Positions 12,263 to 40,532 of a stretch of 64,000 bases of DNA are shown here, piece by piece. Under the pieces are notes generated by a model. It worked only from the letters and a program-made list of their open reading frames with translations. It had not been told where the DNA came from and did not search any database. The stretch lies in NCBI RefSeq assembly GCF_005517195.1, contig NZ_CP040244.1, positions 2,436,001 through 2,500,000 of the forward strand. Direction: 5' to 3'. Every line of letters starts with the position of its first letter. Position 1 is the stretch's first letter. This DNA comes from Streptomyces vilmorinianum. Lineage in GTDB: Bacteria > Actinomycetota > Actinomycetes > Streptomycetales > Streptomycetaceae. Made by a program: the position numbers and the translations under genes.

Positions 12263-12970
12263 ATGGACCCCGTGCCCCAGCCTCCCTCGCCCCGCCGTCC
12301 CCTCCGCCGCACCCCCGTCCAGCAGCGCAGCGCCGAGCGCCTCGCCCGGATCCTCGACGCCTGCGCCGAACTCCTCGAGGAAGCCGGCTACGAGCAGCTG
12401 AGCACCCGCGCCGTCGCCGTCCGCGCGGGCGTGCCCATCGGCTCCGTCTACCGCTTCTTCGGCAACAAGCGCGCCATGGCCGACGCCCTCGCCCACCGCA
12501 ACCTCGACCGCTACGCCGAGCGGATCGCCGCCCGCCTCGCCGCGGCCGGGCAGGTCGACGCGTACGGCACGATCGACAGCGTCCTGGACGAGTACATCGC
12601 CATGAAGCGCACCGTCCCCGGCTTCGCGCTCGTCGACTTCGGCGTCCCCGCGCCCGCCACGGGCGAGTCGTCCGGCGCGAAGTCCGGCGCGAAGTCCCGC
12701 ACAGGGTTCGGCGAAGAGTCCGGTGGCGGATCCGGTGACGGCTCCGGTGTCTACGCCAACCACCTCGTCGCCGACCGCCTCTGCGAGCTCCTCGCCACCC
12801 ATCTCGGCCGCGTCGCCGACGACGCCCTGCGCCGCAAGGTGCTGGTCGGCGTCGAAACCGCCGACGCGCTGCTCCGGCTCGCCTTCCGCACGGATCCGTC
12901 CGGGGACCCCGCGCTCATCGCGGAGACCCGCGAGATCCTCTACGCCTACCTGGCACCCTCGCTGACATGA
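12263..12970 (+). CDS. TetR family transcriptional regulator
   Basis: This 235-aa protein has a clear TetR N-terminus (RSAERLARILDACAELLEEAGY, written across residues about 20-42, then VRAGVPIGSVYRFFGNKRAMADAL). The ligand domain contains an odd low-complexity insertion at about residues 132-166 made of repeated SGAKSGAKS and GGGSGDGSG units, not expected in the fold and probably a disordered loop. It lies 26 bp downstream of the membrane protein and 76 bp upstream of the molybdopterin oxidoreductase on the same strand, so it may control either. No clear operator was found. Confidence 0.88.
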   Translation: MDPVPQPPSPRRPLRRTPVQQRSAERLARILDACAELLEEAGYEQLSTRAVAVRAGVPIGSVYRFFGNKRAMADALAHRNLDRYAERIAARLAAAGQVDAYGTIDSVLDEYIAMKRTVPGFALVDFGVPAPATGESSGAKSGAKSRTGFGEESGGGSGDGSGVYANHLVADRLCELLATHLGRVADDALRRKVLVGVETADALLRLAFRTDPSGDPALIAETREILYAYLAPSLT

Positions 12971-13046
12971 CCCTCCCCAGCGTGCCTACCGGTCGGTATG
13001 CTCGCTGTTGCCCGCGTGCCACCGTCGCCGCCCCAGGGAGTCCGCC

Positions 13047-15242
13047 ATGTCCACCGCCCTGCGCATCTGCCCGCTCTGCGAAGCCACCTGCGGGCTCACC
13101 CTGACCATCGAGGGCACCCGGGTCACCGGAGCCCGCGGGGACCGCGACGATGTCTTCAGCCAGGGCTTCATCTGCCCCAAGGGGGCCTCCTTCGGCGAGG
13201 TCGACGCCGACCCCGACCGGCTCACCGGACCTCTGGTCCGCAAGGACGGAGCCCTCCAGGAGGCCACCTGGGAGGAGGCGTTCGACACCATCGCCGCCCG
13301 GATCCGGCCACTGGTCGAGGAGTACGGGCCGAACGCGGTGGGTATCGTCCTCGGCAACCCCAACGTCCACACCATGGCCGGCGCCCTCTACCCGCCCCTG
13401 CTGATCGGTGCCCTGGGCACGCGGAACCTGTTCACCGCCTCCACGCTCGACCAGATGCCCAAGCACGTCTCCAGCGGGCTGCTCTTCGGTGACCCCTTCG
13501 CCATCCCCGTGCCCGACCTGGACCGCACCGCGCATCTGCTGATCCTCGGCGCCAACCCCCTGGACTCCAACGGAAGTCTCTGCACCGCCCCCGACTTCCC
13601 CGGCAAGCTCAAGGCGCTCCGCAAGCGGGGCGGCACCCTCACCGTCATCGACCCGCGCCGCACCCGTACGGCCAGGCTCGCCGACCGCCATGTCGCCATC
13701 CGCCCCGGCACCGACGCCCTCCTCCTCGCCGCGCTCGTCCACACCCTCTTCGAGGAGGACCTCACCGACCTCGGCACCCTCGCCGAGCACGTCGAGGGCG
13801 TGGAGGAAGTACGGGAAGCCGTACGGGAGTTCACGCCCGAGGCCGTCGCCGCCTCCTGTGACCTGAACGCCGCCACCATCCGTACCGTCGCCCGCGAACT
13901 CGCCGCCGCCCCCTCCGCCGCCGTCTACGGCCGGATGGGCAGCTCCACCGTCGCGTACGGCACCCTCGCCAACTGGCTCGTCGACGTCCTCAACGTCCTC
14001 ACCGGCAACCTCGACCGCCCCGGCGGCGCGCTCTTCCCGCTCTCCGCCACCGCCCCCGCGCCCCGCCCGGCCGGACCCGGGAAGGGCTTCGCGCTCGGCC
14101 GCTGGAGCAGCCGCGTCTCCGGCCACCCCGAGGCCAAGGGCGAGTTCCCGATGGCCGCCCTCGCCGAGGAGATCGAGACCGAGGGCGAGGGCCGCATCCG
14201 TTCCGTGATCACCGTCGCCGCCAACCCCGTCCTGTCCGCGCCCGACGGGAGGCGCCTCGACGCCGCCCTGGACGCACTGGACTTCATGGTCGCCGTCGAC
14301 CCGTACCTCAACGAGACCACCCGCCACGCCGACGTCGTCCTGCCCCCGCCGCCGCCCTCCCAGAGCGCCCACTTCGACTTCGCCTTCAACGGCTTCGCCG
14401 TCCGCAACCAGGCCCGCTTCAGCCCGGCCGCCGTCCCTCTGGAAGAGGGACGCATGGACGAGTGCGAGATCCACGCCCGGCTGATCCTCGCCGTCTCCGG
14501 GATGCACGGCGCCCCGCCCTCGGCCGTGGACGACCTCGCCATCAGCACCACGCTCGCCAAGGCCGTCACCCAGGAGCACTCGCCCCTCTTCGGGGGCGAT
14601 CCGAAGGAGCAGGCCCGCCTCCTCGCCGGCCGCACAGGAGCCGAGCGGCGCCTCGACATGATGCTGCGCCTCGGCCCGTACGACCTCATCCTCGAAGACC
14701 TCCGCCAGGCACCCCACGGCATCGACCTCGGCCCGCTGAAGCCCCGCATCCCCCAGCTCCTCAAGACCCGCAGCGGCCGCGTCGAACTGCTGCCCGCGCC
14801 GATCGCCGCCGATCTGCCCCGGCTGCGCGCCGCGCTGTCCGCGGACCCGGCCGCACTTGTGCTCGTCGGCCGCCGCCACCTGCGGTCCAACAACAGCTGG
14901 CTGCACAACGCGCCGTCCCTCAACAGCGGTTCGAACCGATGCACGCTCCAGGTCCACCCGGACGACGCCGACCGTCTCGGCCTCGCCGACGGCAAGCCCG
15001 CCCGGATCGCGGCGGAGGGCGGCGAGCTGGAGGTCGAGGTGGAGATCACCGACGCCGTACGGAACGGGGTGGTGAGCCTGCCGCACGGCTGGGGCCACGA
15101 CCGTCCCGGCACCCGCCTCGCGGTCGCCGCGGCCCGCCCCGGCGTCAACGTCAACCAGCTCCTCGACGGCACGCGGCTGGACCCGCTGTCCGGCACCGCC
15201 GTGCTCAACGGCTTCCCCGTGGACGTGGCACCCCTGCCGTGA
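13047..15242 (+). CDS. Molybdopterin-dependent oxidoreductase (formate dehydrogenase/nitrate reductase superfamily)
   Basis: GGGAG at 13036-13040 supports the ATG at 13047; a longer frame from 13008 lacks one. The 731-aa protein begins with the [4Fe-4S] motif ICPLCEATCG with the later FICPKGAS. Next come the molybdopterin domains (LILGANPLDSNGS, VIDPRRTRTARLAD, VAANPVLSAPDGRRLDAAL) and the C-terminal molydopterin-binding domain (VGRRHLRSNNSWLHN, SLPHGWGH). No membrane anchor, Tat signal or partner subunit is encoded, so it is a cytoplasmic single-subunit enzyme. The residue after PNVHTM.. does not give a clear Cys or SeCys Mo ligand. The substrate is unknown. Confidence 0.88.
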   Translation: MSTALRICPLCEATCGLTLTIEGTRVTGARGDRDDVFSQGFICPKGASFGEVDADPDRLTGPLVRKDGALQEATWEEAFDTIAARIRPLVEEYGPNAVGIVLGNPNVHTMAGALYPPLLIGALGTRNLFTASTLDQMPKHVSSGLLFGDPFAIPVPDLDRTAHLLILGANPLDSNGSLCTAPDFPGKLKALRKRGGTLTVIDPRRTRTARLADRHVAIRPGTDALLLAALVHTLFEEDLTDLGTLAEHVEGVEEVREAVREFTPEAVAASCDLNAATIRTVARELAAAPSAAVYGRMGSSTVAYGTLANWLVDVLNVLTGNLDRPGGALFPLSATAPAPRPAGPGKGFALGRWSSRVSGHPEAKGEFPMAALAEEIETEGEGRIRSVITVAANPVLSAPDGRRLDAALDALDFMVAVDPYLNETTRHADVVLPPPPPSQSAHFDFAFNGFAVRNQARFSPAAVPLEEGRMDECEIHARLILAVSGMHGAPPSAVDDLAISTTLAKAVTQEHSPLFGGDPKEQARLLAGRTGAERRLDMMLRLGPYDLILEDLRQAPHGIDLGPLKPRIPQLLKTRSGRVELLPAPIAADLPRLRAALSADPAALVLVGRRHLRSNNSWLHNAPSLNSGSNRCTLQVHPDDADRLGLADGKPARIAAEGGELEVEVEITDAVRNGVVSLPHGWGHDRPGTRLAVAAARPGVNVNQLLDGTRLDPLSGTAVLNGFPVDVAPLP

Positions 15243-15375
15243 CCCCTGCTCTGACCTGGGTCTTTTGCTCGTATTGCTCACGCGTCAACATCTTGTTAAC
15301 GGCTGAACAGGGCGCTTAACGTCATCGCCACCGCCGCTCCGGCGGCAGTTCAAGGGTGAACGTGAGGTGTCCTCC

Positions 15376-16761
15376 ATGCTGACCGTCCTCGGCTTCGTCA
15401 TGATCGCGACCTTCCTGGTCCTGATCATGATGAGGAAGATGTCGCCGATCGCGGCGCTCGTGCTGATTCCGGCGCTGTTCTGCGTGTTCGTCGGACAGGG
15501 CGCCCAGCTGGGCGACTACGTCCTCGAAGGGGTGGGCAAGCTCGCGCCCACCGCGGCGATGCTGATGTTCGCGATCGTCTACTTCGGCGTGATGATCGAC
15601 GTCGGCCTCTTCGACCCGATCGTCCGGGGCATCCTGCGCTTCTGCAAGGCCGACCCTCTGCGGGTGGTCGTCGGTACGGCGGTGCTCGCCGCGATCGTCT
15701 CGCTCGACGGCGACGGCTCCACCACCTTCATGATCACCGTCTCGGCGATGTACCCGCTCTACAAGCGGCTCGGGATGAGCCTGGTCGTCATGACCGGTGT
15801 CGCCGCCACCGCCAACGGTGTCATGAACACCCTGCCCTGGGGCGGCCCCACCGCCCGCGCCGCGACCGCGCTCAAGCTGGACGCGGCCGACATCTTCGTC
15901 CCGATGATCCCGGCGCTCGGCGTGGGCCTGCTCTTCGTCTTCGTCCTCGCGTACGTCCTGGGCCTCCGCGAGCGCAAGCGCGTCGGCTACCTCTCCCTGG
16001 ACGAGATCCTGGAGCCGGAGACCGAGACCGTCCTGGTGAAGGCCGGTGGCGGTTCGGACACCCCGAAGGCGTCCGGCGGCTCCGGCGACGCGCCCGGGCA
16101 GCCCGCGGAGGGCGAGGGCTTCCAGGGTCTCGACCCGAACCGTCCGACCCTGCGCCCCCGCCTCTACTGGTTCAACGCCGGTCTCACCGTCGCCCTGCTC
16201 GCCGCGATGATCCTCGAACTGCTGCCGATCCCGGTGCTCTTCCTGCTGGGCGCCGCGCTCGCGCTCACCGTCAACTACCCGAAGATGGCCGACCAGAAGG
16301 CCCGGATCGCCGCCCACGCGGACAACGTCCTGAACGTCGCCGGCATGGTCTTCGCCGCCGCCGTCTTCACCGGTGTCCTCACCGGCACCGGCATGGTCAA
16401 GCACATGGCCGACTGGCTCGTGGGAGCGATCCCCGAGGGCATGGGCCCGCACATGGCGCTGGTCACCGGTCTGCTCAGCCTCCCGCTCACGTACTTCATG
16501 TCGAACGACGGCTTCTACTTCGGCGTCCTGCCGGTCCTGGCGGAGGCGGGCGCGGCCCATGGCGTGTCCCCTCTGGAGATCGCCCGCGCCTCGCTCGTCG
16601 GCCAGGCCCTGCACATGTCGAGCCCGCTGGTCCCGGCCGTGTACGTCCTCGTCGGCATGGCGAAGGTCGAGTTCGGCGACCACACCAGGTTCACGGTCAA
16701 GTGGGCGGCGCTGACGTCGCTGGTGGTTCTCGCGGCCGGAATGCTCTTCGGGATCATCTGA
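15376..16761 (+). CDS. Citrate-metal:H+ symporter, CitMHS family
   Basis: This 461-aa membrane protein has family stretches such as MLTVLGFVMIATFLVLIMM, SLDGDGSTTFMITVSAMYPL, TANGVMNTLPWGGPTARA and the C-terminal SNDGFYFGVLPVLAEAG. I chose the ATG at 15376 because GAGGTG (15364-15369) is well spaced; a GTG at 15367 is an alternative. The family imports citrate complexed with Mg2+ or Ca2+/Fe3+ by proton symport. A hydrophilic loop rich in Gly and Pro occurs at about residues 215-250. A perfect hairpin terminator follows. No two-component system is next to it. A TTGTTA box (15293-15298) upstream could belong to its promoter. Confidence 0.93.
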   Translation: MLTVLGFVMIATFLVLIMMRKMSPIAALVLIPALFCVFVGQGAQLGDYVLEGVGKLAPTAAMLMFAIVYFGVMIDVGLFDPIVRGILRFCKADPLRVVVGTAVLAAIVSLDGDGSTTFMITVSAMYPLYKRLGMSLVVMTGVAATANGVMNTLPWGGPTARAATALKLDAADIFVPMIPALGVGLLFVFVLAYVLGLRERKRVGYLSLDEILEPETETVLVKAGGGSDTPKASGGSGDAPGQPAEGEGFQGLDPNRPTLRPRLYWFNAGLTVALLAAMILELLPIPVLFLLGAALALTVNYPKMADQKARIAAHADNVLNVAGMVFAAAVFTGVLTGTGMVKHMADWLVGAIPEGMGPHMALVTGLLSLPLTYFMSNDGFYFGVLPVLAEAGAAHGVSPLEIARASLVGQALHMSSPLVPAVYVLVGMAKVEFGDHTRFTVKWAALTSLVVLAAGMLFGII

Positions 16762-34881: not shown

Positions 34882-34984
34882 GCGGAAACCTCCCTGATCG
34901 CCTTCCCTGACATGGGCACGCACGCTAGCGCTCCTGACGGTCCCAGGGAACGAGGCGTGCGCCAGAGGTCTTCCCCTGTCACAT

Positions 34985-34998
34985 ACCGACTGGTTAGT
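34985..34998. promoter_or_regulatory. TetR operator site A upstream of the SDR gene
   Basis: ACCGACTGGTTAGT (6-2-6, imperfect) lies 36 bp before the SDR ATG, within ACATACCGACTGGTTAGTC. The reverse complement of 40441-40461 begins ACATACCGACTGGT as well, a 14-base identity, marking a shared operator. Confidence 0.75.
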
Positions 34999-35033
34999 CT
35001 GCCGGTACGGTCGCAACGGAGAGGCGGGTCTCG

Positions 35034-35798
35034 ATGAGTACGGTGCAAGGCGCTGGAGTGGTCGTCACGGGAGCGGGCGGCGGGATCGGAGCCGCACTGG
35101 CCCGCCGGTTCGCCGCCGAGGGCGCCCGGGTCGTCGTCAACGACCTCGACCCGGGCCGCACCAAGGCCGTCGCCGACGAGATCGGCGCCACCGCCGTCGT
35201 CGGCGACGCCTCCGCGATCGTCGAGGGGGCCCGCGAGGCCCTCGGCGGCACCGTGGACGTGTGGTGCGCCAACGCCGGACTCGCCTCGCCCGGCGACGCC
35301 TTCGCCGACGAGGCCGTCTGGGCGGCCGCCTGGGACGTCAACGTCATGGCCCATGTCCGCGCGGCCCGCGCGCTGCTCCCCGACTGGCTGGAGCGCGGCA
35401 GCGGCCGCTTCGTCTCCACCGTCTCCGCCGCAGGCCTGCTCACCATGGTCGGCGCCGCGCCGTACAGCGTCTCCAAGCACGGCGCGTACGCCTTCGCCGA
35501 ATGGCTCTCCCTCACCTACCGCCACCGAGGGGTCAAGGTCCACGCCATCTGCCCGCAGGGCGTCCGTACGGACATGCTGACCGCCGCCGGATCGGCCGGC
35601 GAACTCGTCCTCACCCCCACGGCCATCGAGCCCGAGGACGTCGCCGACTCCCTCTTCGAGGCCATCGAGGCCGACCGCTTCCTGGTCCTGCCGCACCCCG
35701 AGGTCGCCGACTACTACCGGGCCCGGGCGACCGATCCCGAGCGGTGGATCGGCAACATGAACCACATCCAGCGGAAGTGGGAGGGGGAGGGCCGATGA
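35034..35798 (+). CDS. Short-chain dehydrogenase/reductase of the 4-hydroxyacyl-CoA module
   Basis: This 254-aa SDR has a nucleotide motif VVTGAGGGIGAAL and the catalytic Ser131, Tyr144 and Lys148 (APYSVSKHG). It is the first gene of a three-gene run; its TGA overlaps the acyl-CoA synthetase ATG (ATGA). In the Pseudomonas levulinate pathway an SDR (LvaD) reduces the 4-keto group of levulinyl-CoA; by context this protein is a candidate for that or a similar reduction. The exact substrate is inferred only from neighbours. Confidence 0.9.
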   Translation: MSTVQGAGVVVTGAGGGIGAALARRFAAEGARVVVNDLDPGRTKAVADEIGATAVVGDASAIVEGAREALGGTVDVWCANAGLASPGDAFADEAVWAAAWDVNVMAHVRAARALLPDWLERGSGRFVSTVSAAGLLTMVGAAPYSVSKHGAYAFAEWLSLTYRHRGVKVHAICPQGVRTDMLTAAGSAGELVLTPTAIEPEDVADSLFEAIEADRFLVLPHPEVADYYRARATDPERWIGNMNHIQRKWEGEGR

Positions 35799-37525
35799 CG
35801 TCGACCGACTCGACCGACGCGACCGACTCGACCGACGCGACCGACGCGACCGACTCGACGGACCCGACCCGCGCGACGGAGTCGGTCTACGCGGCCAAGC
35901 CGTGGCTCGCCCAGCTCACCGACACCCAGCGGACGCCCATAGCCCCGCCGCCCACCGCGCTGCACGCCTTCCGCGCGGCCGCGGGCCGCGGACCCGAGCG
36001 CCCGGCCCTCGTCTACTTCGACGGCCGCCTGACCTACCGCGAGACCGACGCGCTCTCCGACTCGGTCGCCGGGCACCTCGCCGCCCGTGGCCTCGCGCGG
36101 GGCGACCGCGTCGCGATCATGCTCCAGAACAGCCCGCACTTCGTGCTCGCCCTGCTCGGCGCCTGGAAGGCGGGCGCGACCGTCGTCCCGCTCAACCCCA
36201 TGTACAAGGCGGGCGAGGTCGGACACGCCCTGCGCGACTCCGGCGCCACCGCCCTGATCTGCTCCGACCGGGCCTGGGCAGCGTATCTGGGGGAGAGCGC
36301 CGCCGACTCCTCCGTACGGATCGCGCTCACCGCCTGCGAACGCGACCTCCAGACCCGCGACGACCCGCGCGTCCTCGGCTTCGAGCGCGTGCCCACCGAC
36401 GCCGACGACCTGCTGACCGTCGCCCGCGCCGCACACCCCGCCCCCACGGACCGCGAGCTCACGGGCGACGACGTGGCCCTGATCAGCTACACCTCCGGCA
36501 CCAGCGGCACCCCCAAGGGCGCCCTCAACCTCCACCGGGGCATCACCTACAACGCCGAACGCCAGCGCACCGGGCACCCCGTCCCCGAGGGAGTCGGCTA
36601 CTTCGTGCTCGCCCCGCTCTTCCACATCACCGGCCTGGTCTGCGAGCTCGCCGCCTGCTTCGCCAACGCCGGCACCCTCGTCCTCGCCTACCGCTTCGAC
36701 GCCGGAGTGGTCCTCGACGCCTTCCTGGAGCACCGCCCCGCCTACACGGTCGGCCCCTCCACCGCCTTCATGGCGCTCGCCGCGCACCCGGACGCCACCC
36801 CCGACCACTTCTCCTCGTTCCGGATCATCTCCTCGGGCGGCGCCCCGGTCCCGCCCGCACTGGTGGAGAAGTTCCGCGCCGGCTTCGGTCCGTACATCCG
36901 CAACGGCTACGGCCTCACCGAGTGCACGGCCCCCTGCGCAGCGGTACCGCCCGAGAAGGAGGCCCCGGTGGACCCCGCCTCCGGCACCCTCTCGGTCGGC
37001 GTGCCCGGGCCCGACACCGTCGTCCGCATCCTCGACGAGACCGGCACCGAGGTGCCCTTCGGCGAGCAGGGCGAGATCGCGGTACGCGGACCCCAGGTCG
37101 TCCCCGGATACTGGCGGCTCCCCGAGGCCACCGAGCAGACCTTCCCCGACGGGGAGCTGCGGACCGGTGACATCGGCTTCATGGACGCGGACGGCTGGCT
37201 CTACGTCGTCGACCGCAAGAAGGACATGATCAACGCCTCCGGCTTCAAGGTCTGGCCGCGCGAGGTCGAGGACGTCCTCTACACCCACCCCGCCGTGCGC
37301 GAGGCGGCCGTCGTCGGGATCCCCGACGCCTACCGGGGCGAGACGGTGAAGGCCTATGTGAGCCTGCGCCCGGGCGCCGCCGTGGAGCCCGCCGACCTCT
37401 CCGCGTACTGCGAGCAGCGGCTCGCCGCGTACAAGTACCCGCGCGAGGTCGAGATCCTGGCGGAGCTGCCCAAGACGACAAGTGGGAAGATCCTGAGGCG
37501 GGAACTGCGTTCCCCCAAGCGATGA
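35795..37525 (+). CDS. Acyl-CoA synthetase with repetitive N-terminal extension
   Basis: This 576-aa AMP-forming ligase contains ISYTSGTSGTPKGALN, NGYGLTECTAP, the hinge VDRKKDMINASGFKVWP and the C-terminal Lys in PKTTSGKILRRE. It activates a carboxylic acid to its CoA ester. Codons 3-24 encode a run of Ser/Ala-Thr-Asp triplets built from 9-bp DNA repeats, likely a disordered tail. The start is fixed by GGGAGGGGGAGG and coupling to the SDR. In the LvaE role it would activate a keto or hydroxy acid. Confidence 0.93.
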   Translation: MTSTDSTDATDSTDATDATDSTDPTRATESVYAAKPWLAQLTDTQRTPIAPPPTALHAFRAAAGRGPERPALVYFDGRLTYRETDALSDSVAGHLAARGLARGDRVAIMLQNSPHFVLALLGAWKAGATVVPLNPMYKAGEVGHALRDSGATALICSDRAWAAYLGESAADSSVRIALTACERDLQTRDDPRVLGFERVPTDADDLLTVARAAHPAPTDRELTGDDVALISYTSGTSGTPKGALNLHRGITYNAERQRTGHPVPEGVGYFVLAPLFHITGLVCELAACFANAGTLVLAYRFDAGVVLDAFLEHRPAYTVGPSTAFMALAAHPDATPDHFSSFRIISSGGAPVPPALVEKFRAGFGPYIRNGYGLTECTAPCAAVPPEKEAPVDPASGTLSVGVPGPDTVVRILDETGTEVPFGEQGEIAVRGPQVVPGYWRLPEATEQTFPDGELRTGDIGFMDADGWLYVVDRKKDMINASGFKVWPREVEDVLYTHPAVREAAVVGIPDAYRGETVKAYVSLRPGAAVEPADLSAYCEQRLAAYKYPREVEILAELPKTTSGKILRRELRSPKR

Positions 37526-37561
37526 CGATCACGGACGATCACGAGTGAAAGGCGGCGGCGC

Positions 37562-38155
37562 ATGGCCAGGACGACGGACGGGAGCGGTACCCCCGTCCCC
37601 CAGAGGCTGCTGGCCGCTGCCACCCGGCTCTTCGCGGAGCGGGGCTACGACCGCACCTCCGTCCAGGAGATCGTGGAGGCGGCGGGTGTCACCAAGGGCG
37701 CGCTCTACCACTACTTCGGCTCCAAGGAGGACCTCCTCCAGGAGGTCTACTCCCGGGTGCTGCGGCTCCAGCAGGAGCGGCTCGACGCCTTCGCGGACGC
37801 CGACGCCCCGGTGGAGCAGAGGCTGCGCGACGCCGCCGCCGACGTCGTCGTGACGACGATCGAGAACCTCGACGACGCCTCGATCTTCTTCCGCTCCATG
37901 CACCACCTCAGCCCGGAGAAGAACAAGCAGGTACGGGCCGAGCGGCGGCGCTACCACGAGCGGTTCCGGGCCCTGATCGAGGAGGGCCAGGAGGCCGGGG
38001 TCTTCTCCACGGCGACCCCGGCCGACCTGGTCGTGGACTACCACTTCGGGTCGGTCCACCACCTGTCCACGTGGTACCGCCCGGACGGGCCCCTCACCCC
38101 GCAGCAGGTCGCCGACCAGCTCGCCGACCTGCTGCTGCGGGCCCTGCGTCCTTAG
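37562..38155 (+). CDS. TetR family regulator of the 4-hydroxyacyl-CoA module
   Basis: This 197-aa protein has a TetR DNA-binding domain (QRLLAAATRLFAERGYDRT, IVEAAGVTKGALYHYFGSKEDLL) and a C-terminal half typical of acyl-CoA-responsive repressors (RSMHHLSPEKNKQVRAERRRYHE). It is 36 bp after the synthetase gene on the same strand and convergent with the dehydrogenase/kinase pair. Sites A (34985) and B (40444) flank the whole module and are the predicted targets. Confidence 0.93.
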   Translation: MARTTDGSGTPVPQRLLAAATRLFAERGYDRTSVQEIVEAAGVTKGALYHYFGSKEDLLQEVYSRVLRLQQERLDAFADADAPVEQRLRDAAADVVVTTIENLDDASIFFRSMHHLSPEKNKQVRAERRRYHERFRALIEEGQEAGVFSTATPADLVVDYHFGSVHHLSTWYRPDGPLTPQQVADQLADLLLRALRP

Positions 38156-38158
38156 CGC

Positions 38159-39373
38159 CTACAGGTACTTCTTCAGCTCCCGCCGCGCCAGCGAGCGCTG
38201 GTGCACCTCGTCCGGGCCGTCCGCCAGCTTCAGCGTCCGCGCCGCGGCCCAGAGCTCGGCCAGCGGGAAGTCCTGCGAGACCCCGCCCGCGCCGTGCACC
38301 TGGACCGCCTTGTCGAGGATGTCGACCACCGCGCGCGGGGTGGCGATCTTGATGGCCTGGATCTCCGTGTGCGCGCCCCGGTTGCCGGCGGTGTCCATCA
38401 GCCAGGCGGTCTTGAGGACGAGCAGCCGCAGCTGTTCGACGGTCACCCGGGCGTCCGCGATCCAGTTCTGGACCACGCCCTGCTGGGCGATCGGCTTGCC
38501 GAAGGCGGTACGGGACACGGCCCGGCGGCACATCAGCTCGATGGCCCGCTCGGCCATGCCGATCAGCCGCATGCAGTGGTGGATCCGGCCGGGGCCGAGC
38601 CGGGCCTGGGCGATGGCGAAGCCGCCGCCCTCCTCGCCGATCAGGTTCGAGGCCGGAACGCGGGCGTCGTGGAAGACGACCTCGGCGTGACCGCCGTGGT
38701 CGTGGTCCTCGTAGCCGTACACCTGCATCGCGCGCCGCACCTCGACACCGGGGGTGTCGCGCGGGACGAGGATCATCGACTGCTGGCGGCGGATGTCCGC
38801 GCCGTGCGGGTCGGTCTTGCCCATGACGATGAAGATCTTGCAGTCGGGGCTCATCGCCCCGGAGATGTACCACTTGCGGCCGCTGACGACGTACTCGTCG
38901 CCGTCGCGCGCGATCCGCGTCTCGATGTTCGTCGCGTCCGAGGAGGCCACCTCGGGCTCGGTCATCGCGAACGCCGAGCGGATCTCCCCGGCGAGCAGCG
39001 GCTCCAGCCACTGCTTCTTCTGCGCCTCGTCGCCGAACTGGGCGAGCACCTCCATGTTCCCGGTGTCGGGGGCCGCGCAGTTGAGGGCCGTGGGCGCCAG
39101 CTGGGGGCTGCGGCCGGTGATCTCGGCGAGCGGCGCGTACTGCAGGTTGGTGAGCCCCGCCCCGTACTCCTCGTCCGGCAGGAAGAGGTTCCACAGCCCC
39201 TGGCGCCTGGCCTCGGCCTTCAGGTCCTCGACGATCCGCGGCGTGTCCCACGGCGAGGCGAGCAGCGCCCGCTGCTCGTGGGCGATCTGCTCGGCGGGGT
39301 ACACGTGCTCGTCCATGAAGGCGAGGAGTTTCGCCCGCAGCTCCTCGGTGCGCGCGTCGAATGCGAAGTCCAT
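38159..39373 (-). CDS. ACAD10/11-type acyl-CoA dehydrogenase (LvaC-like)
   Basis: This 404-aa protein belongs to the ACAD10/ACAD11 branch: SAFAMTEPEVASSDATNIET, LGPGRIHHCMRLIGMAERA, and the C-terminal QVHGAGGVSQDFPL, with KLADGPDEVH replacing the usual catalytic Glu segment. In animals and in Pseudomonas LvaC, these enzymes act on 4-phosphorylated acyl-CoA, eliminating phosphate to give the enoyl- or 3-hydroxyacyl-CoA. It begins 6 bp after the kinase-like gene and is cotranscribed with it. The branch assignment is from recognised sequence blocks. Confidence 0.93.
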   Translation of the reverse strand: MDFAFDARTEELRAKLLAFMDEHVYPAEQIAHEQRALLASPWDTPRIVEDLKAEARRQGLWNLFLPDEEYGAGLTNLQYAPLAEITGRSPQLAPTALNCAAPDTGNMEVLAQFGDEAQKKQWLEPLLAGEIRSAFAMTEPEVASSDATNIETRIARDGDEYVVSGRKWYISGAMSPDCKIFIVMGKTDPHGADIRRQQSMILVPRDTPGVEVRRAMQVYGYEDHDHGGHAEVVFHDARVPASNLIGEEGGGFAIAQARLGPGRIHHCMRLIGMAERAIELMCRRAVSRTAFGKPIAQQGVVQNWIADARVTVEQLRLLVLKTAWLMDTAGNRGAHTEIQAIKIATPRAVVDILDKAVQVHGAGGVSQDFPLAELWAAARTLKLADGPDEVHQRSLARRELKKYL

Positions 39374-39379
39374 GGCGGT

Positions 39380-40402
39380 TCAGCCTTCCTGGAGGGTGGT
39401 GAGGCCGTGCTCGATGAAGACGGGGACGAGTTCGCCGATGCGGTCGAAGCCGGCGCCGACGGTCTGGCCGAGGGTGTAGCGGTAGTGGATGCCCTCCAGG
39501 ATCACGGCGAGCTTGAACCAGGCGAAGGCCGTGTACCAGGAGATCGCGGAGGTGTCGCGGCCCGAGCGGGCGGCGTAGCGCTCGATCAGCTCGGCGGGCG
39601 TGGGGTGCCCGGCGGCCGTGGCGGTCGTGCTGACGGGGGAGTGCGGGACGTCGAGCCGCGCGCTGTACATCGCGAGCAGGCCGAGGTCGGTCAGCGGGTC
39701 GCCGAGGGTGGACATCTCCCAGTCGAGGACGGCCTTGATGCGGTCGTCCTCGCCGATCAGGACGTTGTCCAGGCGGTAGTCGCCGTGCACGACCGTGGGG
39801 GCGGGGGAGGCCGGGAGCGCGCGGCCGAGGGCGGCGTGCAGCTCGTCGATGCCCGCGAGATCGCGGCCCCGGGAGGCTGCGAGCTGCTTGCCCCAGCGGC
39901 GCAGCTGGCGGTCGAGGAAGCCCTCGGGGCGCCCGAAGTCGCCCAGACCCACCGCGGCGGGGTCCACGGCGTGCAGGTCGACGAGGGTGTCGACCAGGCC
40001 GAGGACGGCCTCGCGGGTGCGCTCGGGGCCGAGCGGGGCGAGCTGTTCGGCCGAGCGGTACGGGGTTCCGGCGACGAACTCCATGACGTAGAACGGCGCG
40101 CCGAGCACGGTGTCGTCCTCGCACAGCAGGACGGGCTCCGGGACGGGCACGGCGGTCCCGTGCAGGGCGCTGATCACGCGGTGCTCGCGCTTCATGTCGT
40201 GTGCCGTGGCCAGGACGTGGCCGAGCGGCGGCCTGCGGACCACCCACTGGACGGTGCCGTCCGTGACGACGTACGTGAGGTTGGACCGGCCGCCCTCGAT
40301 CAGCCGGGCGGTGAGCGGGCCGCGCAGGAGTCCCGGCCGTTCCCGGTCGAGGAATCCGCGCAACTGCCCGGGGTCGAGACCGGGCGGCGGTGCTGAACTC
40401 AT
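39380..40402 (-). CDS. APH-fold kinase, ACAD10/11 N-terminal-type (LvaA-like)
   Basis: This 340-aa phosphotransferase contains IEGGRSNLTYVVTDG, VVRRPPLGHVLATAHDMKRE, the catalytic loop VVHGDYRLDNVLIGED and metal-binding DWEMSTLGDPLTDLGLL. These blocks correspond to the kinase half that in human ACAD10/11 is fused to the dehydrogenase; here the two halves are separate adjacent genes. By analogy it phosphorylates the 4-hydroxyl of a hydroxyacyl-CoA. Operator site B is 42 bp upstream. Confidence 0.92.
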   Translation of the reverse strand: MSSAPPPGLDPGQLRGFLDRERPGLLRGPLTARLIEGGRSNLTYVVTDGTVQWVVRRPPLGHVLATAHDMKREHRVISALHGTAVPVPEPVLLCEDDTVLGAPFYVMEFVAGTPYRSAEQLAPLGPERTREAVLGLVDTLVDLHAVDPAAVGLGDFGRPEGFLDRQLRRWGKQLAASRGRDLAGIDELHAALGRALPASPAPTVVHGDYRLDNVLIGEDDRIKAVLDWEMSTLGDPLTDLGLLAMYSARLDVPHSPVSTTATAAGHPTPAELIERYAARSGRDTSAISWYTAFAWFKLAVILEGIHYRYTLGQTVGAGFDRIGELVPVFIEHGLTTLQEG

Positions 40403-40443
40403 CGTGCGTACCTCCAGAGGGTGGCTGGTCGGCGTTCATGATG

Positions 40444-40457
40444 ACCGACCAGTCGGT
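40444..40457. promoter_or_regulatory. TetR operator site B upstream of the kinase/dehydrogenase operon
   Basis: ACCGACCAGTCGGT is a perfect 6-2-6 palindrome, extended as TGACCGACCAGTCGGTATGT. It lies between the divergent kinase and glucarate-dehydratase-like genes and matches site A at 34985. Confidence 0.8.
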
Positions 40458-40515
40458 ATGTCGTCCAGGGTTCGGGAGGGAAAGCCGTGCCGTCGGTCTG
40501 GTCGTGGATTGTCTG

Positions 40516-40532
40516 TGTGAATATGGTTCACA
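40516..40532. promoter_or_regulatory. Palindrome abutting the start of the glucarate-dehydratase-like gene
   Basis: TGTGAATATGGTTCACA is a perfect 6-5-6 dyad ending one base before the ATG at 40534. Its position would block initiation, and its sequence is of GntR/LacI type. There is no Shine-Dalgarno between it and the ATG. Confidence 0.65.

Follow-up and report, generated by a model that had tools for sequence, protein, structure and literature searches.

A TetR-associated gene cluster of Streptomyces vilmorinianum and its probable role in 4-hydroxy acid catabolism

Organization of the locus

The window analysed here is a 64,000-nucleotide stretch of the Streptomyces vilmorinianum genome, which is a single contig of 7.65 Mb (NCBI RefSeq assembly GCF_005517195.1, contig NZ_CP040244.1, positions 2,436,001 to 2,500,000). 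Between about 35 and 40.4 kb of the window two units converge: genes for a short-chain dehydrogenase/reductase (SDR), an acyl-CoA ligase and a TetR regulator are transcribed rightwards, and face a leftwards pair encoding an APH-type kinase and an acyl-CoA dehydrogenase (ACAD). This raises the question of whether the five genes form one regulated pathway, and for which acids. A preliminary description of the locus had interpreted it as a complete levulinate-type module for 4-hydroxyacyl-CoA catabolism, bracketed by one operator. The observation of facing units with a shared operator is confirmed, with all five genes placed and oriented as described, and the interpretation is partly supported. 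Judging from protein families, active-site residues and conserved operators, the five genes probably form a regulated pathway by which carboxylic acids with a 4-hydroxy group, and possibly those with a 4-oxo group, enter beta-oxidation. Published work is cited here from excerpts of the papers named. The features of the cluster are as follows.

34982-35001, + strand: putative operator of the SDR-ligase-TetR unit, CATACCGACTGGTTAGTCTG, overlapping a possible -10 element (TAGTCT, by eye)
35034-35798, + strand: SDR oxidoreductase (Pfam adh_short, 3e-36; YxxxK at residue 144)
35795-37525, + strand: AMP-binding acyl-CoA ligase (Pfam AMP-binding, 1e-88), with an ATGA overlap with the SDR stop codon
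37562-38155, + strand: TetR regulator, predicted to be of the PfmR type (TetR_C_24), 36 bp after the ligase gene
38159-39373, - strand: dehydrogenase of predicted ACAD10/11-LvaC type, from PDB ranking and seven marker residues
39380-40402, - strand: APH-fold kinase of predicted LvaA / ACAD11 kinase-domain type (Pfam APH, 6e-56), 6 bp from the ACAD gene
40437-40460, - strand: putative operator of the kinase-ACAD unit, CATACCGACTGGTCGGTCATCATG, conserved in Streptomyces loci

Among the best 25 NCBIfam models shown for each protein, none lies above its cut-off for any of the five.

The dehydrogenase and kinase resemble ACAD11

The best PDB matches of the dehydrogenase are ACAD11 8v3u (464.6 bits), 4hr3 (453.2 bits) and ACAD11 2wbi (451.3 bits; which we take to be the human protein), and the next chain, an ACAD of another type, scores 148.4 bits. 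Structure 8v3u is mouse ACAD11, in which R626, H634 and R637 (of the HCMR helix) and D753 serve 4-phosphate binding and catalysis, with R631 common to ACADs (PMC12440821). Residue numbers in the PDB chain are one below those in the paper, and with this shift applied the window protein keeps R626, R631, H634, C635, M636, R637 and D753, as do mouse ACAD11 and TTHB015 of Thermus; Thermus TTHB022 is an ordinary ACAD in the same alignment. All seven residues are present in 37 of 54 aligned rows (37 of 43 excluding paralogs of the source genome), an agreement that is partly by construction since 14 rows came from a scan patterned on GPGRIHHC or APDTGNM. The full set is found in none of the 11 scored ACAD paralogs of the source genome (22 paralogs in all). 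In a maximum-likelihood tree, whose root is arbitrary, a starred branch parts seven ordinary ACADs together with TTHB015, L101, L103 and L104 (11 rows in all) from the side holding the window protein and mouse ACAD11, to which five long-branch paralogs also attach with unsure placement. Residues and PDB ranking support assignment to the ACAD10/11-LvaC type, as the preliminary description had proposed, and the tree agrees as far as its unsure long branches allow.

The source genome contains 23 ACAD matches at 1e-10, and after the window protein the next is only 34% identical. The best named relative is encoded by a Streptomyces cathayae plasmid (89%). Within the genus, 143 of 150 genomes, the source genome among them, have an ortholog (E<=1e-90), as do 116 of 296 genomes in a phylum sample.

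The kinase likewise appears to be the partner half that had been suggested. Its best PDB chains are 9o56 (227 bits), 3dxp (180 bits) and the ACAD11 kinase domain 8v3v (167.2 bits), and it keeps the equivalents of D220 (the catalytic Asp of the HGD motif), N225 (the Asn that follows) and R176 of ACAD11. The CoA-binding Arg residues named for the ACAD11 kinase domain are R86 and R176; like ACAD11, the window kinase has an Arg next to its alpha-C Glu, and R86 as numbered in the paper meets no Arg in the alignment numbering. The PDB matches and the catalytic residues support a match to the LvaA / ACAD11 kinase-domain type. Only two matches to the kinase are found in the source genome at 1e-5, the second being 32% identical.

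No LvaB-like gene lies in the 6 bp that separate the kinase and ACAD genes. A small protein encoded next to the Thermus kinase belongs to Pfam DUF6285, which its position makes a candidate LvaB family; at E<=0.001 the genome contains no DUF6285 match, which leaves room for an unlike LvaB elsewhere. The absence of a small LvaB-like protein from the module therefore stands, and the associated idea of a kinase that works alone has precedents: activity is described for the kinase domains of ACAD10/11 and for a bacterial relative in purified form, in a paper whose text does not mention LvaB (PMC11342911), and in Pseudomonas citronellolis lvaB is absent from the region analysed (PMC6692424). In Thermus (L004, 3045-4045) the DUF6285 gene and a histidine phosphatase gene lie directly 3' of the kinase gene, and a histidine phosphatase likewise adjoins the lvaA homologue of P. 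citronellolis (PMC6692424).

Near-identical operators precede both units

The exact 10-mer ACCGACTGGT is present twice in the window, at 34985-34994 on the + strand and at 40448-40457 on the - strand. Matching of this 10-mer with two mismatches was rejected as evidence, giving 89 matches where 73.5 are expected, so the significance of the operators must come from elsewhere. The longer ATACCGACYNGT occurs five times in the 7.65-Mb genome, three of them inside the window, compared to two occurrences of the reversed control.

Conservation was scored in 27 Streptomyces loci, selected from the 143 genomes with an ACAD match; 60 stretches were fetched, and 27 of them, from chosen genomes, hold the pair at an ACAD identity of at least 79%. 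The kinase gene adjoins the ACAD gene in all 27, with only a partial kinase match in L046. Upstream of the SDR gene, CATACCGACYGGTTAGTCTG is present in all 20 loci for which the fetched sequence covers the promoter (L053 and L086, where the SDR gene runs off the stretch, are left out), and each of these promoters carries CATACCGAC(C/T)GGTTAGTCTG. Upstream of the kinase gene, ACCGACYNGTCGGT is found with at most one mismatch in 26 of 27 loci, the exception again being L046. The palindromes reported ahead of both units are thus borne out as near-identical sites that are maintained among related Streptomyces loci.

At the level of the genus, CATACCGACYNGT occurs 223 times in 61 genomes and its reversed pattern 64 times. 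Within the source genome ACCGACYRGTCGGT has three exact copies, one at the kinase site, one at 7549245, which sits between reading frames according to a crude open reading frame caller, and one at 4718517. The exact ACCGACCAGTCGGT at this last place (L108, about 2518-2531) lies some 36 bp 5' of a DJ-1/PfpI-like frame by eye, and an enoyl-CoA hydratase-like frame is about 1.7 kb away; a further target may be located there. Other genome sites inspected are at 3407759, 4008054 and 3106471. Shuffled controls in the operator, third-site and cross-phylum scans keep base composition only.

Two plasmids carry relatives of the cluster in other settings. The Streptomyces cathayae plasmid locus L001 (5972-9709) holds a copy of the cluster that has no ligase match and a TetR match in two frames, lies near IS3-family transposase genes and looks decayed. 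On a Streptomyces plasmid (L003, 5853-15203) a kinase-ACAD pair has genes for an AfsA-like hotdog protein, a ketosynthase III and a HAD protein as neighbours, which resembles the surroundings of butyrolactone or other biosynthesis genes.

The TetR regulator is related to Thermus PfmR

The best PDB chain for the TetR protein is 3vpr, presumably Thermus PfmR. For direct comparison TTHB023 was taken from pTT27, where gene order and the site published at 13,899 identify it. The two proteins are identical at 65 of 188 positions (34.6%), the window protein combines TetR_N with TetR_C_24, the C-terminal domain that both have, and their recognition helices are very similar. ACCGACCGGTCGGT stands 5 bp 5' of TTHB023, at PfmR's own promoter, and several of the Streptomyces kinase operators read CATACCGACCGGTCGGC; by eye, the kinase site of the window fits 15 of the 16 letters of the PfmR consensus TACCGACCGNTNGGTN and the SDR site 14. 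PfmR binds its genomic sites with nanomolar affinity, and the Thermus operon TTHB023-TTHB014 encodes a ligase, SDRs, MaoC, two ACADs and a phosphotransferase (PMC7022988). Adjusted p values in a pfmR mutant are 0.0199 for TTHB015 (ACAD) and 0.0209 for TTHB014 (phosphotransferase), and 0.07-0.17 for the other genes of the operon (PMC7022988).

ACCGACCGGTCGGT is also the operator of PaaR, a TetR protein of the Burkholderia phenylacetate genes, where the -35 and -10 elements enclose it as a dual overlapping repeat (PMC2770484). The ACCGACCGGTCGGT-type motif thus marks a class of catabolic TetRs, and our designation of the window regulator as putatively PfmR-type draws on protein, operator and gene content together. 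TetR orthologues of 82-85% identity are also present in L167, L168 and L169, from three Streptomyces genomes without an ACAD at the cut-off, and no operator is seen in the stretches fetched there.

The SDR and the loosely associated ligase

The SDR is a candidate 4-oxoacyl-CoA / 4-hydroxyacyl-CoA reductase with a role like that of LvaD. Relatives of it are encoded directly 5' of the kinase-ACAD pair in Winogradskya L223 (59% identical) and 5' of the pair in L069 (53%). The ligase is a candidate for the activation step that is not constant in the cluster. In the 22 clusters where SDR and TetR are both seen, it is full in 15 (including L053, where three pieces of match cover it), partial in one (L091) and absent from six, so it is a loose part of the cluster, and calling the module complete was too strong. 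This looseness fits the growth on levulinate of a Pseudomonas putida mutant lacking lvaE (PMC6692424). The N-terminus of the window ligase (35802-35880) is encoded by ACCGACTCG/ACCGACGCG repeat units that give Thr-Asp-Ser/Ala runs; this segment may be strain-specific, as it looks, or may lie ahead of the true start.

Recurrence in other bacteria

The cross-phylum set comprises 88 loci and 1.35 Mb, made up of eight plasmid loci and 80 named relatives, which are the best 80 of at least 593 relatives of a Burkholderia sequence and not a random sample. With at most two mismatches, ATACYRACYRGTYRGTAT gives 20 sites in 12 of the 88 loci and none in block-shuffled sequence, the pattern having been drafted after the sites in L241, L043, L203 and L225 were seen, so that the other eight loci are independent; the remaining 76 loci have no such site. 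Eight of the 12 are from Bacillaceae (L187, L198, L203, L210, L225, L232, L235 and L041), and these are all of the Bacillaceae recognised among the 88. In six of the eight the site starts 33-48 bp 5' of the ACAD match; in L041 it is 5' of the SDR and in L210 it is 3' of the TetR. Matches to ACAD, SDR, ligase, TetR and kinase occur together on one strand in L203, L210, L232 and L235 (the kinase match of L210 and L232 being cut by the end of the stretch), and L203 and L232 also contain frames that by eye resemble 3-hydroxyacyl-CoA dehydrogenase and enoyl-CoA hydratase.

The other site-bearing loci include three of actinobacterial genera. Microbispora L241 has one site 5' of kinase-ACAD and another 5' of its TetR (69%), Nonomuraea L043 has one 5' of an ACAD lacking a kinase match and another 5' of its TetR (67%), and in Nocardiopsis L194 the site is 36 bp 5' of the ACAD. 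In L175, a gammaproteobacterial metagenome-assembled genome, a weaker site lies about 40 bp 5' of the kinase match. Taken with the Thermus operon, this looks like one regulated 4-hydroxyacyl-CoA module that recurs in three phyla.

Among the best 80 of at least 593 relatives, the lva operon was not seen in the seven Pseudomonas loci viewed. In five Pseudomonas loci (L193, L200, L214, L239 and L245) the ACAD11-type gene lies beside a divergent LysR-like frame by eye, and no kinase match is found within 8 kb on each side. A Tsukamurella plasmid (L002, 4134-13045) carries the kinase-ACAD pair with two more ACADs, MaoC, a HAD phosphatase and a ligase, together with a phosphotriesterase-family gene whose product is a possible lactonase.

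A proposed pathway and its alternatives

A plausible scenario is that the ligase of the cluster, or another cellular ligase, would form the CoA thioester, the SDR would interconvert its 4-oxo and 4-hydroxy forms, and the APH-type kinase would phosphorylate the 4-hydroxyl, as its family and residues suggest. The ACAD11-type dehydrogenase, by the same kind of evidence, would then eliminate the phosphate by way of FAD and the HCMR helix to give a 2-enoyl-CoA. The kinase would act without an LvaB partner, as in ACAD10/11. Conservation of the operators and the published binding by PfmR suggest that the TetR protein represses both units by binding the operator ahead of each, and an acyl-CoA or other metabolite of the pathway would release it.

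Several points weigh against this scenario. Five rows of the ACAD alignment carry variants of the marker (HAMR in two, HVMR in two and HCLK in one), and in the tree the HCMR label requires five changes, five long-branch paralogs attach with unsure placement on the window's side, and TTHB015 groups with the ordinary ACADs. The Thermus relatives of the window proteins are distant (39.5% for the ACAD, 27.7% for the kinase, 28.7 and 33.8% for SDRs), the annotation of the Thermus ligase spans just 314 aa, and the Thermus locus, which is included in the cross-phylum set, misses the two-mismatch limit of ATACYRACYRGTYRGTAT, itself a pattern shaped by four of its loci. The operator motif alone does not prove PfmR orthology, because PaaR uses the same 14-mer. 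Three Streptomyces genomes (G231, G247 and G286) keep the TetR without an ACAD match, and among the 80 named loci with an ACAD11-type gene 43 have no kinase match in the fetched stretch. The ligase, being absent or partial in seven of 22 clusters, may serve another substrate. Finally, chain length and the choice between keto and hydroxy substrate are not set by the evidence, and 'levulinate-type' is therefore unsupported.

Some of the same evidence invites other explanations. The kinase and ACAD could act on 4-hydroxyacyl-CoAs with the SDR and ligase merely co-regulated and serving another acyl pathway, such as the beta-oxidation of a branched or an ordinary acid. Separate transcription units and the six clusters without a ligase agree with this, as do the TetR-ligase-SDR unit about 5 kb from the kinase-ACAD pair in L086, the lack of such a unit within the fetched stretch of L046 and L048, and the position of SDR and ligase below the cut-off of the NCBIfam models. 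In the genome of L046 (G237) an SDR-ligase stretch with an operator does lie about 7 kb away (L152). The SDR relatives that precede the kinase-ACAD pair in L223 and L069 speak against mere co-regulation, as do the four Bacillaceae loci in which all five gene types occur together and the agreement of the operators, and we regard it as rather unlikely. A diverged ACAD11-type pair could instead apply the same phosphorylation-elimination chemistry to another hydroxyacyl-CoA, with the hydroxyl at a different position or on a cyclic or isoprenoid acid. The substrate is not predictable, and the pair of L003 is found in a biosynthetic setting, but all of the ACAD11 residues that contact the substrate phosphate are kept in the window ACAD, which makes such a change of substrate improbable.

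A strict levulinate pathway, with levulinate the physiological substrate as for lva of Pseudomonas, would account for the enzyme classes, which are the same as those of LvaA, LvaC, LvaD and LvaE (roles from PMC6692424). However, the cluster is flanked by muramidase and enolase-superfamily genes rather than lva-type transporter genes, and an LvaB-like gene is not found. ACAD10 and ACAD11 act on both C5 and C6 4-hydroxyacyl-CoAs (PMC12440821, PMC11342911), so members of the family are not restricted to C5 substrates, and an ortholog found in as many as 143 of 150 genomes points to a general rather than a niche role. Levulinate specificity thus seems decidedly improbable, and a general entry route for 4-hydroxy acids is the reading that we prefer.

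A third site and neighbouring genes

A related palindrome elsewhere in the window suggests that the molybdopterin oxidoreductase gene next to it, some 22 kb from the cluster, is a possible further member of the regulon.

12984-13001, + strand: related palindrome GCCTACCGGTCGGTATGC, a possible third target, ending 45 bp 5' of the molybdopterin oxidoreductase start
13047-15242, + strand: molybdopterin oxidoreductase (Pfam PF00384, PF01568 and PF04879)

The best PDB chain of the oxidoreductase is labelled thiosulfate reductase and is followed by formate dehydrogenases. A second TetR gene (12263-12970) adjoins the site, and a gene for a CitMHS-family transporter (15367-16761) is located downstream of the molybdoenzyme. 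GCATACCGRYCGGTAYGC is present with at most two mismatches in all 30 scored loci (source genome included), starting 52-157 bp 5' of the molybdoenzyme match; these 30 have the highest scores among 47 matches, which come from 45 of the 61 genomes. Shuffled stretches contain it with at most three mismatches in 3 of 600 cases, for a pattern drafted after some of the sites had been seen. Another set of loci is biased, having been selected because a site lies 20-30 kb away from the cluster, and the 30-locus count is the fairer one. In favour of the PfmR-type TetR as its regulator, the third site contains ACYGRYCRGT, the core of the PfmR consensus, and the SDR site does not. The palindrome centre of the third site is 2 bp compared to 6 bp in the SDR and kinase sites. 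Since the centre differs and a second TetR gene adjoins, we do not assign a regulator to it. In G199 (L162) the site persists and no match to the second TetR is found in the fetched stretch, which again favours the PfmR-type TetR. Twelve genomes, chosen mostly for a missing ACAD, were checked for the molybdoenzyme: three have it, all with a PfmR-type TetR, and five others have the TetR without it.

The cluster itself lies between genes for a NamZ-type muramidase and an enolase-superfamily enzyme. The latter is glucarate dehydratase-like and divergent from the kinase gene, and an imperfect palindrome, GTGAATATGGTTCAC at 40517-40531, is found just 5' of its likely start (40534).

Relationship to known systems

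The relationship with Thermus, the recurrence in other phyla and the third site at 12984-13001 go beyond the preliminary description. They allow a broader proposal, namely that the PfmR-type TetR with ATACYRACYRGTYRGTAT is an ancient switch dedicated to 4-hydroxyacyl-CoA catabolism from Deinococcota to Bacillota and Actinomycetota, that what Thermus PfmR controls as an ill-defined 'fatty acid' regulon in fact serves 4-hydroxy acids, and that the Streptomyces molybdoenzyme some 22 kb away is governed by the same switch and supplies or processes a hydroxylated substrate. We offer this tentatively, as a possibility that may well fail in one part or another. For Thermus PfmR the published work names no pathway more precisely than fatty acid metabolism (PMC7022988), and 4-hydroxy acid catabolism would be a likely function for it. 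No link of PfmR or of a Streptomyces cluster with 4-hydroxy acid catabolism was found among the papers listed in searches of an open-access library, outside of which most subscription journals lie. If the proposed pathway is correct, a cluster common to most sampled Streptomyces genomes is tied to a pathway that has only recently been defined biochemically in mammals, and provides a split, LvaB-less model of ACAD10/11.

Of the characterized systems, mammalian ACAD10 and ACAD11 share the same two activities, as far as family and catalytic and phosphate-binding residues indicate, and likewise have no LvaB; here the two are separate proteins, in a TetR-associated cluster with an SDR and a ligase. 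The lva operon of Pseudomonas putida has kinase, ACAD, SDR and acyl-CoA ligase classes in common with the window (PMC6692424, PMC11342911). These four classes are as had been described, but the claim that the sets are exactly the same does not extend to the rest, for here a TetR replaces LvaR, whose homologue in P. citronellolis is annotated as PrpR-like (PMC6692424), no LvaB-like gene is found, the genes form two facing units and no transporter gene directly adjoins. Strictly speaking the cluster is therefore no lva operon, but it probably resembles one in how its final two steps proceed. The Thermus PfmR operon TTHB023-TTHB014 has the same type of TetR and operator, a ligase, SDRs, the HCMR-type ACAD TTHB015 and the APH kinase TTHB014; it differs in the addition of MaoC, a PaaI thioesterase and a second ACAD (PMC7022988), in the DUF6285 and histidine phosphatase genes beside the kinase, and in enzymes that are only 28-40% identical to those of the window. 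Burkholderia PaaR is a TetR repressor with the operator ACCGACCGGTCGGT in common, and controls phenylacetate degradation (PMC2770484). Compared to these systems the Streptomyces cluster contains known kinds of enzyme in a new arrangement, with a two-protein version of ACAD10/11, no LvaB-like partner found and control of the PfmR type.

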